Shown here one piece after another: positions 503 to 3,138 of a stretch of 45,886 bases of DNA. Each line of letters opens with the position of its first letter. Positions within the stretch are counted from its first letter, which is position 1. The notes under the pieces were generated by a model. That model saw nothing but the letters and a program-made list of their open reading frames with translations. It did not search any database and was not told the DNA's origin. Source of the stretch: Oscillospiraceae bacterium (GTDB taxonomy: Bacteria; Bacillota; Clostridia; Oscillospirales; Ruminococcaceae); the NCBI GenBank assembly GCA_029006135.1, contig JAQXGE010000062.1, positions 1-45,886 of the forward strand, read 5' to 3'. A program made the position numbers and the translations under genes.

Positions 503-524
503 CCGCTGCAACGGGATAACGACA

Positions 525-552
525 AAGCCCACACCGGAATCGGTGTGGGCTT
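525..552. terminator. Hairpin of array unit A
   Basis: A perfect 12-base-pair stem (AAGCCCACACCG with CGGTGTGGGCTT) has a four-base GAAT loop. It begins 5 bases after a GGGATAAC string that matches the stop-codon end of the spoIVB repeats downstream. It abuts the stop codon of the minus-strand nucleotidyltransferase gene, so it can end transcription from either side. Equivalent hairpins with different outer stems follow each spoIVB repeat. Confidence 0.65.
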
Positions 553-555
553 CGC

Positions 556-1164
556 TTATAGAATGTTTTCTAAATACTGAATCCATTGCTGTGTTGTTGT
601 TTCGTCAAAACAGCGCAATGCTTTTTCGTAACAGGAGTATGCTTCGGGGTGGTGTTGTTTCATCCAAATCAGGCTTTTCTTTGGACCGAAATATGGATGG
701 CGAACGGCATCACAAAAAATTTCAAGCGTATCTACCAAGAGCCAATGCCATCGGAACAGGCCTTCTGCATCCGTACGCTTTGTTCGCATCAACATTTTTT
801 TGCACCATGCTATTTCATCTTTGATTTCATCCACTGTCTTGGTAGGTAATTTGTTTATGTATTCCAAAACAGCCTGCTGTAATCTCTGCCCGACCCCGTT
901 TGAATCAAGAACAATTTTGCCGTCAAAAACTTGGATGAACTGAGAGTAGTCCTCAATCTGCTGAATGTCAGTGTTGGGATAAACAAAAACATCCAATTGA
1001 ACATTGTTTACGAAAGATGTATCGTGAAACGCTTCGTGAGCTTCTGAGATTACCAAAGCGTCAAAGTCACTGCTTTCGTTATTTATTCCGCTGGCGTAGG
1101 AACCATACACGATAATCGTTTCGGGAGCATAATTCTGCTTTATATATTTGATGATTTCTTCCAT
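556..1164 (-). CDS. Nucleotidyltransferase-domain protein (array cargo A)
   Basis: The protein is about 202 residues. The N-terminus holds the pol-beta-type nucleotidyltransferase motif: GSYASG at residues 21-26, the metal-binding pair D33 and D35 in SDFD, and a third acidic residue D58 in QLDVF. The rest is helical, as in aminoglycoside or KNTase-type enzymes that move AMP onto a small molecule or protein. The substrate cannot be told from sequence. The start at 1164 is chosen because GGAGGG lies seven bases upstream; an in-frame ATG five codons earlier lacks a ribosome site. A -10 box TATAAT sits just upstream (1184-1189, minus strand), so the cargo carries its own promoter. The gene is antisense to the spoIVB fragments. 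Confidence 0.8.
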   Translation of the reverse strand: MEEIIKYIKQNYAPETIIVYGSYASGINNESSDFDALVISEAHEAFHDTSFVNNVQLDVFVYPNTDIQQIEDYSQFIQVFDGKIVLDSNGVGQRLQQAVLEYINKLPTKTVDEIKDEIAWCKKMLMRTKRTDAEGLFRWHWLLVDTLEIFCDAVRHPYFGPKKSLIWMKQHHPEAYSCYEKALRCFDETTTQQWIQYLENIL

Positions 1165-1183
1165 ATTGCAGCCCTCCAATCAC

Positions 1184-1211
1184 TTATTATAACGCATTTT
1201 ATCGAGAGTAG
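1184..1211 (-). promoter_or_regulatory. Promoter of cargo A
   Basis: On the minus strand TTCTAC, a 16-base gap and a perfect TATAAT precede the nucleotidyltransferase gene. The -35 box is weak. Similar TATAATAA boxes precede cargoes B and C. Confidence 0.5.
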
Positions 1212-1221
1212 AATATTCGTC

Positions 1222-1368
1222 TGTTGTCCCTAATGCCAATCACTCGTGTCCGGGTCGCCCGTGCTCCAAGATGGAAAAATTGTGGGAGCGGTGACCCATG
1301 TTCTTGTGAACGATCCGACGATGGGGTATGGAATCTTTATTGAAAATATGCTGGACGCGGCGGGATAA
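1222..1368 (+). repeat. spoIVB 3'-end repeat, copy 1 (147 bp)
   Basis: From 1246 to the TAA at 1366-1368 the plus strand encodes [44 protein letters not shown], the C-terminus of the SpoIVB serine peptidase (family S55, whose nucleophile is in the SGSP motif). Upstream, a 24-base lead (TGTTGTCCCTAATGCC...) is shared by all copies and holds an in-frame stop, so this is not a gene by itself. It is one of three copies of exactly equal length, at 1222, 2010 and 2554. It marks the boundary between cargo A and cargo B. Confidence 0.87.
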
Positions 1369-1370
1369 CA

Positions 1371-1404
1371 GCAGGAGCCCACACCGAATGGTGTAGGCTC
1401 CTGC
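1371..1404. terminator. Hairpin of array unit B
   Basis: GCAGGAGCC-C-ACACC pairs with GGTGT-A-GGCTCCTGC around a GAAT loop, two bases after the spoIVB stop codon. The inner ACACC/GGTGT is shared with the other hairpins while the outer stem differs with compensating changes. The stop codon of cargo B lies about 22 bases further on. Confidence 0.65.
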
Positions 1405-1426
1405 TCTGCAAACTGAAATTTTATGG

Positions 1427-1921
1427 TTACAGTTTCATTATTTCTTCTACAATAGCTTGAACAGATTTATTGCGAGTGTCTATTTTGATGCTATCGAGTT
1501 CTTGATATAAAGGAATTCTTTCTGTGCTTCTTTCAATAATATCAACACTACGAATACCTTTCTCGATATCCATCATCAAGCGCTTTCTCAAACAGTCTGC
1601 ATCTGTAATTAAAGAAATCACTTTTACATCGCAATTTGCTGTGGCTAATTTCTGTGTAATCGAATCAATGATGCCTTGCTGATGCATTACCCAACAGAAA
1701 ATTACATTTTCATAGGCTGAACAACGCAGGAAGTTGTTCAGCAAGTGACAAATATTATCCATAACCATAGCTTTTGTTTCTTCTGTTACTTGAAAGGGGT
1801 TGGCATCCCAACACCAATCTCCATCCAGAAAAACGCTGTTATTTAATTTAGCTTTAAGCTGTTGGCATACGGTTGTTTTTCCAACTCCCATCGTGCCGCC
1901 AATTAAATATAATCGTTTCAT
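1427..1921 (-). CDS. P-loop nucleotide kinase-like protein (array cargo B)
   Basis: A 164-residue protein with a Walker A motif at residues 9-16 (GTMGVGKT) directly after the first strand, LDGDWCW as the probable acceptor-side acidic block, and a late R-x3-R region (CLRKRL). This is the layout of small kinases of the shikimate/gluconate/AAA_33 type that phosphorylate small molecules; the substrate is unknown. The start at 1921 has GAGG six bases upstream; an upstream in-frame ATG lacks this. It is lower in GC than the core genes. It has its own promoter and lies antisense between spoIVB repeat copies 1 and 2. Confidence 0.75.
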   Translation of the reverse strand: MKRLYLIGGTMGVGKTTVCQQLKAKLNNSVFLDGDWCWDANPFQVTEETKAMVMDNICHLLNNFLRCSAYENVIFCWVMHQQGIIDSITQKLATANCDVKVISLITDADCLRKRLMMDIEKGIRSVDIIERSTERIPLYQELDSIKIDTRNKSVQAIVEEIMKL

Positions 1922-1957
1922 AGTGTGCCTCATAAACTTCAAATTTGTCTTGTGATT

Positions 1958-1986
1958 ATTATAGCGTGCACTCACAGAATTGTATA
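1958..1986 (-). promoter_or_regulatory. Promoter of cargo B
   Basis: Minus-strand TATACA, 17 bases, then TATAAT (in GCTATAATAATC) upstream of the kinase-like gene. This matches a sigma-A promoter with a moderate -35 box. Confidence 0.55.
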
Positions 1987-2009: not shown

Positions 2010-2156
2010 TGTTGTCCCTAATGACAATCACTCATGTCTGGGTCGCCAATTTTACAGGATGGGAAAATCGTGGGCGCCGTCACCCATGTTCTCGTCAATG
2101 ATCCCACCAGGGGGTATGGAATCTTTATTGAGAATATGCTGGATGCGGCGGGATAA
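2010..2156 (+). repeat. spoIVB 3'-end repeat, copy 2 (147 bp)
   Basis: The same 147-base unit as at 1222, ending with TAA at 2154-2156. It encodes [40 protein letters not shown]. Against copy 1, 16 codons differ silently and 3 change the residue, so the fragments look like ends of once-functional spoIVB genes and not passively decaying copies. In-frame TAA and TGA lie just before the homologous part. Confidence 0.87.
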
Positions 2157-2161
2157 CGACG

Positions 2162-2200
2162 AAGTCCACACCGATTTTGGGACGGTGTGGGCTTGCTTTT
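2162..2200. terminator. Hairpin of array unit C
   Basis: AAGTCCACACCG pairs with CGGTGTGGGCTT (one G-T wobble) around a nine-base loop, then GCTTTTTCG. It starts five bases after the spoIVB stop. The following GCAAACTGGAATTT resembles the sequence at the same place in unit B, so the repeated segment extends past the hairpin. Confidence 0.65.
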
Positions 2201-2254
2201 TCGTTCGGCAAACTGGAATTTATCTGATGCCAGAGTTAAGTTTGCAAAACAAAA

Positions 2255-2470
2255 TTATTCTTTTTCCTCGAGTTCCTTGACTCTCTTTTCCAATTGATCA
2301 ATTCTTTCTTCTTGTGCCATAAAAATAGATGCAACGACTGCAATGATAAATGCACAAGCCGCCGTAGCGACAAAAAATCTTTTGCTGAAGTCGAAGAGCA
2401 TCCAACCGCCCAGAAAAACAAAGACGTAACACAATACCAAAGTAACAGCATAGGTTTTAATAAACTTCAT
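2255..2470 (-). CDS. Small two-helix membrane protein with coiled-coil tail (array cargo C)
   Basis: A 71-residue protein: two hydrophobic segments (about residues 7-25 and 33-51) joined by a short loop, then a charged heptad-like tail (EERIDQLEKRVKELEEKE). I recognise no family. The start has AAGGGAG about ten bases upstream and a TATAAT box further up. The layout suggests an inner-membrane anchor whose cytoplasmic tail dimerises or binds a partner. It is the only gene between spoIVB repeats 2 and 3. Confidence 0.65.
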   Translation of the reverse strand: MKFIKTYAVTLVLCYVFVFLGGWMLFDFSKRFFVATAACAFIIAVVASIFMAQEERIDQLEKRVKELEEKE

Positions 2471-2505
2471 TTTATTTTTGCTCCCTTCAAGCTCAAATTT
2501 TGTTG

Positions 2506-2534
2506 TTTATTATAGCAAAAATTGATTTGTTTAT
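2506..2534 (-). promoter_or_regulatory. Promoter of cargo C
   Basis: Minus-strand TATATA, about 17 bases, then TATAAT in GCTATAATAAAC. This is the same -10 context as for cargoes A and B; the -35 box is poor. Confidence 0.45.
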
Positions 2535-2553
2535 ATAGTTGTTGCAGTAACAA

Positions 2554-2700
2554 TGTTGCCCCTAATGCCAATCACTCGTGTCGGGCAGTCCCATTTTGCA
2601 GGACGGGAAAATTGTGGGAGCGGTGACCCATGTTCTTGTGAACGATCCGACGAGAGGGTATGGAATCTTTATTGAAAATATGCTGGACGCGGCGGGATAA
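2554..2700 (+). repeat. spoIVB 3'-end repeat, copy 3 (147 bp)
   Basis: Third copy, ending with TAA at 2698-2700. It encodes [16 protein letters not shown] and on to the same DAAG end. In its first part it differs from copy 1 at many silent sites (TCG GGC AGT against TCC GGG TCG), yet from AAAATTGTG to the stop it is identical to copy 1 except for one codon (AGA against ATG). That mosaic pattern suggests recombination between copies or related donors. Confidence 0.87.
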
Positions 2701-2701
2701 C

Positions 2702-2736
2702 GCAGAGGCCAACACCGAAAACGTGTGGGCCTCTGC
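2702..2736. terminator. Hairpin of array unit D
   Basis: GCAGAGGCC-A-ACAC pairs with GTGTG-GGCCTCTGC around a short loop, one base after the spoIVB TAAC. Fourth member of the hairpin set, with its own compensated outer stem. It lies 19 bases from the stop of the minus-strand glyoxalase-fold gene. Confidence 0.65.
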
Positions 2737-2754
2737 TCTGTAAATGCTAATTTG

Positions 2755-3138
2755 TTAAACTGTGATTTCGATCTGATTCCCTTCAATTCCAACAATACAG
2801 CTTTCATAATAGCCGTCTCCCGTAGTTCGCGGGCCAGACAACACTTCATATCCATCATTTTTTAATCTTTGTGTAAGTTCATCGACTTTTTCTTTTGAAC
2901 CAGTACTGAATGCTATATGGATCAACCCGGTTCGCCTAATACTCTTTTCTTCGTCTTTCATATCAGGGTGATTCATAATTTCAAGTCTTGAACCATCTTC
3001 AAATGTCAAAAAATATGAACGGAAATTAGTTGTTTTATTATGGTAACCATCATTCGATACTGCATTAAAGTATTTTACAAAAAAATCTTTTGCGCTTGTT
3101 AAATCATTTACATACATCGCAATATGTTCAATCTTCAT
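2755..3138 (-). CDS. VOC (glyoxalase/bleomycin-resistance fold) protein, array cargo D
   Basis: A 127-residue protein with a vicinal-oxygen-chelate layout: it opens KIEHIAMYV-DL (His5 as the first likely metal ligand), has a SRLEIMNH strand in the middle, TGLIHIAFS as the second repeat, and ends GNQIEITV with the last acidic ligand. The family includes glyoxalases, dioxygenases and fosfomycin or bleomycin resistance proteins; the sequence does not say which. The start at 3138 has GGAGG about nine bases upstream. It is the first gene after spoIVB repeat 3 and the last of a minus-strand run with the two genes to its right. Confidence 0.8.
   Translation of the reverse strand: MKIEHIAMYVNDLTSAKDFFVKYFNAVSNDGYHNKTTNFRSYFLTFEDGSRLEIMNHPDMKDEEKSIRRTGLIHIAFSTGSKEKVDELTQRLKNDGYEVLSGPRTTGDGYYESCIVGIEGNQIEITV

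Follow-up and report, generated by a model that had tools for sequence, protein, structure and literature searches.

An integron-like array of cassettes carrying spoIVB 3′ ends in an Oscillospiraceae bacterium, probably docked at one codon by large serine recombinases acting in trans

Why does the 3′ end of the sporulation gene spoIVB recur several times in succession, each time followed by a different small gene? The question is raised by contig JAQXGE010000062.1 (C62, from base 1) of the Oscillospiraceae bacterium assembly GCA_029006135.1, a genome of 2.0 Mb that is 84% complete; this whole stretch of 45,886 nt is referred to as the window. A preliminary description of the window had proposed a site-specific system that inserts cassettes into spoIVB, each bringing a replacement 3′ end. 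Having followed the repeats across genomes, we assign a probability of roughly 0.7 to the reading that the window captures a section of an integron-like array, the mobile cassettes of which would dock at one spoIVB codon through large serine recombinases (LSRs) supplied in trans.

Three direct repeats start at positions 1216, 2004 and 2548, the outer two being 77% and 83% identical to the middle one over 171 nt. A DNA-profile scan of positions 1–8000 recovered the same three copies (E 3e-32 to 8e-35) and no fourth full copy up to E 10. Each 147-nt repeat consists of a 24-nt half-site foreign to spoIVB, denoted P, and of B′, the last 40 spoIVB codons plus the stop codon; B/B′ denotes the intact spoIVB dock, P′ the other half of an element, and the stroke a junction. 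The P/B′ junction always falls at the Met codon of GGIVQG/MSGSP. Within the window B′ starts at the Met or Val codon of (M/V)SGSP, and in copy 1 the crossover would lie between 1246 and 1247 (G/TG). On these points the preliminary description was accurate: the repeat search and the profile scan agree on three 147-base direct repeats encoding the SpoIVB C-terminus, a hairpin follows each stop codon (z −4.9 to −5.9), and the cargo genes lie on the opposite strand, three of the four being named by Pfam and a 71-amino acid (aa) protein having no match. Its truncated fourth unit is real but short, comprising at 507–536 just the stop-codon end and the hairpin start, with 87% identity to repeat copy 2.

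The P half-sites of the window agree with a pattern found across genomes, here called the box. A scan of 84,980 species genomes returned 53 box occurrences in 49 stretches from 45 genomes (by record prefixes); about 7 chance matches are expected by our own estimate, made with no shuffle control. Forty-one of the 53 abut xSGSP. The remainder precede decayed or truncated 3′ ends (six: L110, L116, L129, L142, L150 and L157), are cut by the contig end after GTGAG or GTGTC (two: L113 and L138), lie inverted against the 5′ part of spoIVB (two: L119 and L151), take a palindromic form (one, L112) or are unrelated (one, L114). The same non-spoIVB half-site is found at the same spoIVB codon in 44 of the 45 box genomes, whose record titles name Oscillospiraceae, Lachnospiraceae and other Clostridia, with Anaerostipes sp. 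992a and Faecalicatena contorta ET55 as named strains. When up to two mismatches were allowed, the box was present in 6 of 396 family genomes, at spoIVB-type P/B′ copies in five of the six, and the reversed-pattern control gave two matches; within the genus, 1 of 35 genomes carries the box. Seventy-nine 3′-end copies could be read with their 24 upstream nucleotides: 53 stand behind a box-type P (30 of these identical over all 24 nt), 19 behind a B half, and seven behind neither, namely five with the P type of the LSR elements described below, one B variant (L145) and one deletion form (L154).

Searches with the SpoIVB C-terminus, which do not depend on the box, gave a similar picture. Among 297 family genomes spoIVB was found in 257, with at least two matches in eight, our own genome included. 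Extra copies starting at MSGSP behind the same type of 24-nt sequence are present in G108, G114, G153 and G306, which represent four genera. We did not count as arrays G054 and G200, whose extra SpoIVB matches are only weak (G200 has a box-like site with three mismatches), or G207, which has two full-length spoIVB genes. Among 216 genomes of the class, 11 gave at least two matches. In nine of the 10 further candidates a P-type half-site, for example TGTTGTCCCCTATTGACAACAGTC or TGTTGTCCCATATTGACATCACTC, precedes an extra copy that begins exactly with MSGSP, and a spoIVB open reading frame (ORF) of 341–406 aa lies upstream of the P/B′ copy; in the tenth, G582, the copy was not seen in the stretch fetched and was counted as a miss. 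The class count rests on genomes with at least two matches, and G527, the only genome with a single partial match that was looked at, does carry a P/B′ copy. Two other stretches were discarded: L164, a spoIVB–spo0A locus followed by phage-like genes (by eye) with no extra 3′ end, and L244, a chance pattern match.

At the dock, B ends in GGNATYGTSCARGGA (codons GIVQG) and B′ begins with the Met codon of MSGSP. A unit runs from B′ through the cargo to a 24-nt P half-site, which abuts the B′ of the next unit; in the window units a hairpin follows the stop codon of B′. The first copy runs upstream into spoIVB GGIVQG in 17 of the 49 box stretches, later copies begin at MSGSP, and most of the remaining stretches start within the array. 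B/B′ upstream of the array, as a regenerated dock should leave, is found in those 17 stretches and in the nine class loci, and the upstream spoIVB frame is open where it was read (L111, L112, L135 and L136; 321–419 aa). After four duplicate loci had been dropped, 48 units could be delimited between successive copies, with a median length of 961 bp and a range of 226–6,629 bp. By mechanical calling of ORFs of at least 45 aa, 25 of these units hold one ORF, 11 hold two, eight hold three or more and four hold none. In the class set, units of 2–13 kb include apparent catabolic operons (glycyl-radical enzyme and activase, with regulators; by eye).

Pfam matched 14 of 20 proteins searched from a list of 30 cargo proteins: GNAT (2), an AAA_18/zeta-like kinase, barstar, a ribonuclease-domain protein, a short-chain dehydrogenase, PHP, an X-Pro peptidase, HTH (2), a Na/H exchanger, a cyclase, a DUF6036 nucleotidyltransferase and BRO-N. 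One cassette (L112, 3171–4049) pairs the ribonuclease-domain protein with a barstar-family partner in the manner of a toxin–antitoxin pair. In the same locus (reverse complement, ~3884–3933) the hairpin past one 3′ end consists of two P-like half-sites in palindromic arrangement and looks like a complete attP site. Some units at L252, L254, L258 and L155 hold catabolic-looking clusters (glycyl-radical enzyme, activase and regulator; by eye) and not single genes.

Evidence for site-specific transfer comes from cassettes shared between genomes. One cassette, encoding a 192-aa protein without a Pfam match, terminates at the box in 11 loci, 10 of which are usable, L113 having only 4 nt right of the junction. 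The 10 carriers are different species representatives, seven with ruminants in their record titles. Over the 45 ungapped pairs the left flanks are on average 97.9% identical (minimum 92.6%) and the right flanks 56%, and the drop starts at G/TG: identity is 0.98 just left of the junction, 0.85 in the first ten bases to the right and 0.75 in the second ten. In a second cassette family (L086 and L111) similarity ends exactly at the right-hand junction. In L135 and L137 the cargo together with P begins at the same point just past the stop codon and is 96% identical overall across species, and the left contexts differ, being the 5′ part of spoIVB in L135 and a P half-site in L137. These same-cassette comparisons, the recurrence in 44 of 45 box genomes and the class search uphold the proposal of a site-specific, gene-restoring cassette system at the codon before SGSP.

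A plain tandem duplication of the spoIVB 3′ end within a single lineage, followed by gene insertions, could account for repeats that share this 3′ end and lie upstream of spo0A. It would not place the same foreign half-site at the same codon in 44 genomes or the same cargo at 98% identity in 10, and together with the class-set loci these observations leave it as good as refuted; the preliminary description had likewise taken the repeats to be something other than a one-off duplication in one strain. A second alternative is that cassette circles enter through the 120-bp B′ repeat by homologous recombination, P being a fossil of the original element. This would suit the lower conservation of B′ relative to cargo in shared cassettes and the seven of 33 relics that are closest to their own genome's intact end. 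We consider it decidedly unlikely: the stepwise fall in identity across the junction ends at 0.75, which is also the median over all 3′-end pairs, B′ copies are often just 70–80% identical and so are poor substrates for homologous recombination, and the P half-sites stay conserved, as the 30 of 53 that are invariant attest.

Our own genome encodes an intact 406-aa SpoIVB (Peptidase_S55) on contig C27, 254 bases from the contig end. This gene may lie left of the window, and the array may well continue from it. The preliminary description had expected an intact spoIVB immediately to the left; the intact copy does lie near a contig end, but the C27–C62 join is not assembled and adjacency is not proven. 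Its placement of the array between spoIVB and spo0A agrees with the spo0A gene of the window and with three genus relatives in which spo0A lies closely downstream of spoIVB, but does not hold for arrays elsewhere that are detached from spoIVB. The SpoIVB of this genome ends in ..IENMLDAAS and lacks the tail of the genus (..ADAVVP-like). The DNA of its 3′ end is 61–71% identical to those of five genus relatives and up to 82.5% identical to 3′ ends at other array loci, and at the protein level the tail is 68–82% identical to the relatives, compared with 77–100% among them. A 3′ end that looks foreign in this way lends moderate support to 3′-end replacement.

Upstream of the detached arrays (Anaerostipes sp. 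992a, G153 contig C44 and L121) lies unrelated DNA, with nothing more of spoIVB ahead of the ATG than the 15-bp B half GGNATYGTSCARGGA. Since that is all these arrays retain, the comparison points to ~15 bp as the minimal length of the B half-site. Arrays and full-length spoIVB lie on different contigs in Anaerostipes sp. 992a, F. contorta and SUG698. The array of Anaerostipes sp. 992a (L233, C4:425000–444000) stands directly behind the Gabija genes GajA and GajB (PADLOC E 1e-255 and 1e-219) and has a caspase-like gene among its cargo. In G153 (L084, C44:1–12000) the SpoIVB 3′ end adjoins matches to MzaB, MzaC and MzaE of an MZA-type defence system, and Dcm- and Vsr-like genes are also present (by eye).

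Which enzyme could move such cassettes? Candidates are found on IMG/VR contigs and one phage-collection record, which carry three consecutive LSRs of 472–572, 566–568 and 528–541 aa. The trio ends ~14–140 nt short of a P half-site that is joined to SpoIVB at MSGSP (L162, L165, L166, L167, L168 and L169), and with L198 there are seven loci at which three co-oriented LSRs lie beside P/B′; Resolvase, Recombinase and Zn-ribbon domains were checked on the L168 trio only. A composite P/B′ pattern matched six IMG/VR stretches, five on trio contigs and one by chance, and neither the box nor the left-end pattern matched in the IMG/VR scan. Just past the P/B′ junction of L166 a serine-recombinase-like gene begins beside the trio (6843–7871) and may belong to a second recombinase-bearing unit in tandem.

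The trio also occurs in G438, the genome of array L146, where it ends in P/ATGAGCGG at a contig end. In the same genome spoIVB is broken at the cassette codon (B/P′) and fused in frame to parA, giving a 723-aa ORF (L231, contig C18). The two ends, on contigs that are not joined, fit a canonical B/P′ ... P/B′ insertion of one putative integrative element. B/P′ is also present in G108 and G423, in which spoIVB is likewise interrupted, and in L172 by 15 nt of spoIVB only. P′ reads GGAGTGATTGATAATAGGGACAA in G108 and G423, and in all three genomes it is an inverted relative of P that meets it at a shared TG, where the crossover would fall. Serine-integrase attP sites are built in the same way, as inverted halves around a shared dinucleotide.

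Cassettes and LSR elements have P half-sites of the same length. Cassette P halves are identical to the best LSR-linked P half at 18–22 of 24 nt, compared with a mean of 8.3 and a maximum of 16–17 of 24 in shuffle controls (two sequences, 5,000 shuffles each), and five array cassettes carry the LSR-element type outright (L112, L136 twice and L155 twice). Scored singly against six LSR-linked halves, the CAATCACTC box reaches 11, 16, 16, 16, 17 and 20 of 24, and the left end of G108 and G423, whose element is not assembled, shares the inner sequence of this box. No trio match was found in the 49 box stretches (E 1e-6). Because neither these stretches nor the class-set units contain a match, the enzyme would act in trans. 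An integrase working in trans had been proposed before: its absence from the box stretches and the use of the same codon by the trio elements agree with that idea, but the enzyme is likely to be of the serine class and not an integron integrase. We infer an LSR as the mobilizing enzyme. A tyrosine recombinase on G000:C83 (L021, 4931–6352) was dropped as a candidate, having no match elsewhere among the loci examined (E 1e-6), and the LSRs that occur singly on G000:C83 and G306:C168 fall outside the trio type (20–24% identity). A simple pattern search found no P-like site near the two LSRs of G423. The G000:C83 contig (L021 and L108), a third contig of our own genome, also has a decayed SpoIVB 3′ end between an AgrB-like gene and a GNAT-like gene that resembles an L112 cargo (both genes by eye); its recombinases are of 473 aa (tyrosine; by eye) and 515 aa (serine; PF07508).

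The existence of B/P′ insertions opens a further alternative, in which the cassettes are right-hand remnants of LSR elements. After canonical integration (B/P′ ... P/B′, spoIVB broken), the left part would disappear and an intact copy would restore spoIVB through homologous recombination, so that cargo-P/B′ stays behind; the pattern would then be made by selection for sporulation and not by site-specific insertion of cassettes. The resemblance of cassette P half-sites to those of LSR elements and the variation between hosts of the B′ before a shared cargo speak for such a course. It does not readily explain how cargo plus P with the same start recurs at 96% in different species and left contexts (L135 and L137), arrays of three or four relics with different cargos would need the whole cycle repeated each time, and units near 1 kb are common. 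We regard this alternative as unlikely.

Several observations weigh against insertion by LSRs acting in trans, and some concern the enzyme. We found no LSR adjoining a box of exactly CAATCACTC type, and the lowest score of that box, 11 of 24, is unremarkable, being reached by 712 of 20,000 shuffles. The class-set units likewise lack a trio match (E 1e-10). A relative of the third LSR (E 1e-20) is present in only 13 of 32 array genomes, that of G438 alone being close (58%); for the other 19 the helper possibly lies outside the metagenome-assembled genomes (MAGs). Three of five array genomes (G108, G114 and G153) lack PF07508. Most loci are on MAG contigs, often broken at the cassette repeats, and an LSR element with both ends in one contig was not seen among the loci examined. 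To our knowledge, standard LSRs do not recombine P/B′ with B/B′, a pairing of attR with attB. Other points concern the 3′ ends. L135 and L137 are ~99% identical from just past the stop codon but 85% within B′, and L132 and L154 follow the same trend, with cargo somewhat below 99% and B′ identity rising from 70%. The seven of 33 relics whose nearest 3′ end is the intact one of their own genome are what duplication or gene conversion would give. B′ is not strictly linked to cargo. For the other 26 relics, the 3′ end of some other genome is at least as similar as the intact one of their own. The earlier idea that each cassette brings its 3′ end is therefore sound in that foreign 3′ ends are common, but too strict as to linkage; we conclude from these alignments that the repeated ends also undergo homologous exchange, or else that the mobile unit does not in every case include B′.

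Taking insertion by LSRs in trans as the preferred reading, we propose the following course. A free cassette with a P/B′ site would recombine with B/B′ at the shared TG, with LSRs that integrative elements bearing a tandem trio of LSR genes would supply. The products would be B/B′ again, with spoIVB whole, the dock regenerated and the newest cassette nearest to spoIVB, and a P/B′ relic end. With these products cassette insertion could be repeated, and the array would grow from one side. Selection for sporulation would keep spoIVB whole and make it a safe dock, and homologous exchange among the repeated 3′ ends would later reshuffle them. We also lean towards a broader formulation, a serine integron widespread in Clostridia, in which triplet LSRs in trans would shuttle recombinase-less cassettes into the regenerating spoIVB dock. 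By analogy, P half-sites would correspond to attC and B half-sites to attI, and the end of spoIVB itself would serve as a repair patch.

The features of the window are collected in Table 1. The partial transposase at the contig edge we take to be IS30-like. Across the array, promoter-like sites are not above chance (7 found, 8.2 expected) and terminator-like sites not clearly so (3 found, 2.3 expected); the terminator scan placed none at the post-stop hairpins, which were not classed as intrinsic terminators. From the last relic to spo0A (3169–6667) the minus strand carries more genes (nitrilase-like and GNAT-like by eye) with no repeats that could be recognized; these genes may be old cassettes with decayed ends. 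GC-rich palindromes of the GGCTCCCC..GGGGAGC type lie beside assembly breaks at window positions 470–500 and at L020 150–253; by eye they look like a dispersed repeat, and they adjoin both the array remnant and the end of the C27 spoIVB contig.

Table 1. Annotated features of the spoIVB 3′-end array and its flanks, in window coordinates.
Feature	Position	Strand	Evidence
Transposase, partial, HTH_38	1–378	−	Pfam E 7e-17; at contig edge, left of truncated unit
SpoIVB 3′-end remnant (last codons + stop)	507–524	+	Hairpin follows, to ~555
Cargo 1, 202-aa nucleotidyltransferase	556–1164	−	Pfam NTP_transf_2 E 3e-8, Polbeta
P half-site 1, TGTTGTCCCTAATGCCAATCACTC	1222–1245	+	Agrees with cross-genome box
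B′ copy 1, codons VSGSP..AAG stop	1246–1368	+	Repeat and profile scan
Hairpin 1 past stop codon	1370–1405	+	z −5.7
Cargo 2, P-loop kinase-like, 164 aa from ATG	1427–1921	−	Pfam AAA_18 E 2e-15 (run on 1427–1924)
P half-site 2	2010–2033	+	Agrees with cross-genome box
B′ copy 2	2034–2156	+	Repeat and profile scan
Hairpin 2 past stop codon	2155–2205	+	z −4.9
Cargo 3, 71-aa protein, membrane-like by eye	2255–2470	−	Without Pfam match
P half-site 3	2554–2577	+	Agrees with cross-genome box
B′ copy 3	2578–2700	+	Repeat and profile scan
Hairpin 3 past stop codon	2702–2736	+	z −5.9
Cargo 4, VOC/glyoxalase-fold protein, 127 aa	2755–3138	−	Pfam Glyoxalase E 5e-15
spo0A (landmark outside array; next to spoIVB in genus relatives)	7042–7890	+	80–88% identical to Spo0A of three genus members

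The arrays resemble integrons in their head-to-tail order of small cassettes, often with just one gene, that have a conserved half-site for recombination, in their one regenerated dock, in the diversity of their cargo, which includes a toxin–antitoxin-like pair, and in their spread between species. They differ in docking at a codon of a host gene, in the 40-codon gene end that the units carry and in the apparent enzyme, which is of the serine class. We rejected membership of the integrons proper: no match to the integron integrase TIGR02249 exceeded the curated cut-off in any of the 32 array genomes, weak matches being present in all 32 and in all 14 controls, and an attC-like fold is absent, the three 147-nt repeats folding no better than shuffles (z −0.83, 0.02 and 0.21), with good folding confined to the post-stop hairpins.

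Serine recombinases and gene ends are also combined in the staphylococcal cassette chromosome (SCC), which is known to grow by accretion of ccr-less units. SCC and the Enterococcus cassette chromosome are described as integrated by LSRs (ccrAB) into the 3′ region of the conserved rlmH gene, between attL and attR, with occasional remnants, and so share this gene-end logic (PMC6222049). Those islands are at least 20 kb long and carry their own ccr pair, whereas the units here are of ~1 kb without a recombinase, and spoIVB is cut inside a domain, its 40-codon end being carried along. None of our junctions is an rlmH attachment site; all are spoIVB or detached spoIVB-derived B/B′ sites. Three co-oriented serine integrases near the element end, with integration inside genes, are reported for integrative and conjugative elements of Streptococcus; there the reported targets are mutT, traG and hsdM, which are disrupted, with repeats of 2–8 bp (PMC4701971). 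In our case the insertions fall in spoIVB, and cassettes that lack a recombinase have the half-sites in common with the elements. The skin elements in sigK of Bacillus and C. difficile are likewise serine-recombinase elements in a sporulation gene, but each is a single element excised during sporulation (PMC5025042), whereas the cassettes here leave spoIVB intact and accumulate. Our searches of openly licensed PMC papers yielded no description of a spoIVB cassette system. We regard the system as probably a form of LSR-driven insertion at a gene end, which would deserve a name of its own if the reaction in trans were shown.

If this reading is correct, integron-like cassette capture would have evolved twice in bacteria, on the second occasion through an unrelated class of enzyme and with dock repair borne by the cassette itself, and the P/B′ × B/B′ reaction would be one that the standard rules for serine integrases do not predict. 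The use of a sporulation gene as the dock raises the question of whether cassettes move during spore formation or are purged by it. Variable spoIVB–spo0A intervals would be explained, and gut and rumen Clostridia would hold a discoverable pool of mobile genes.

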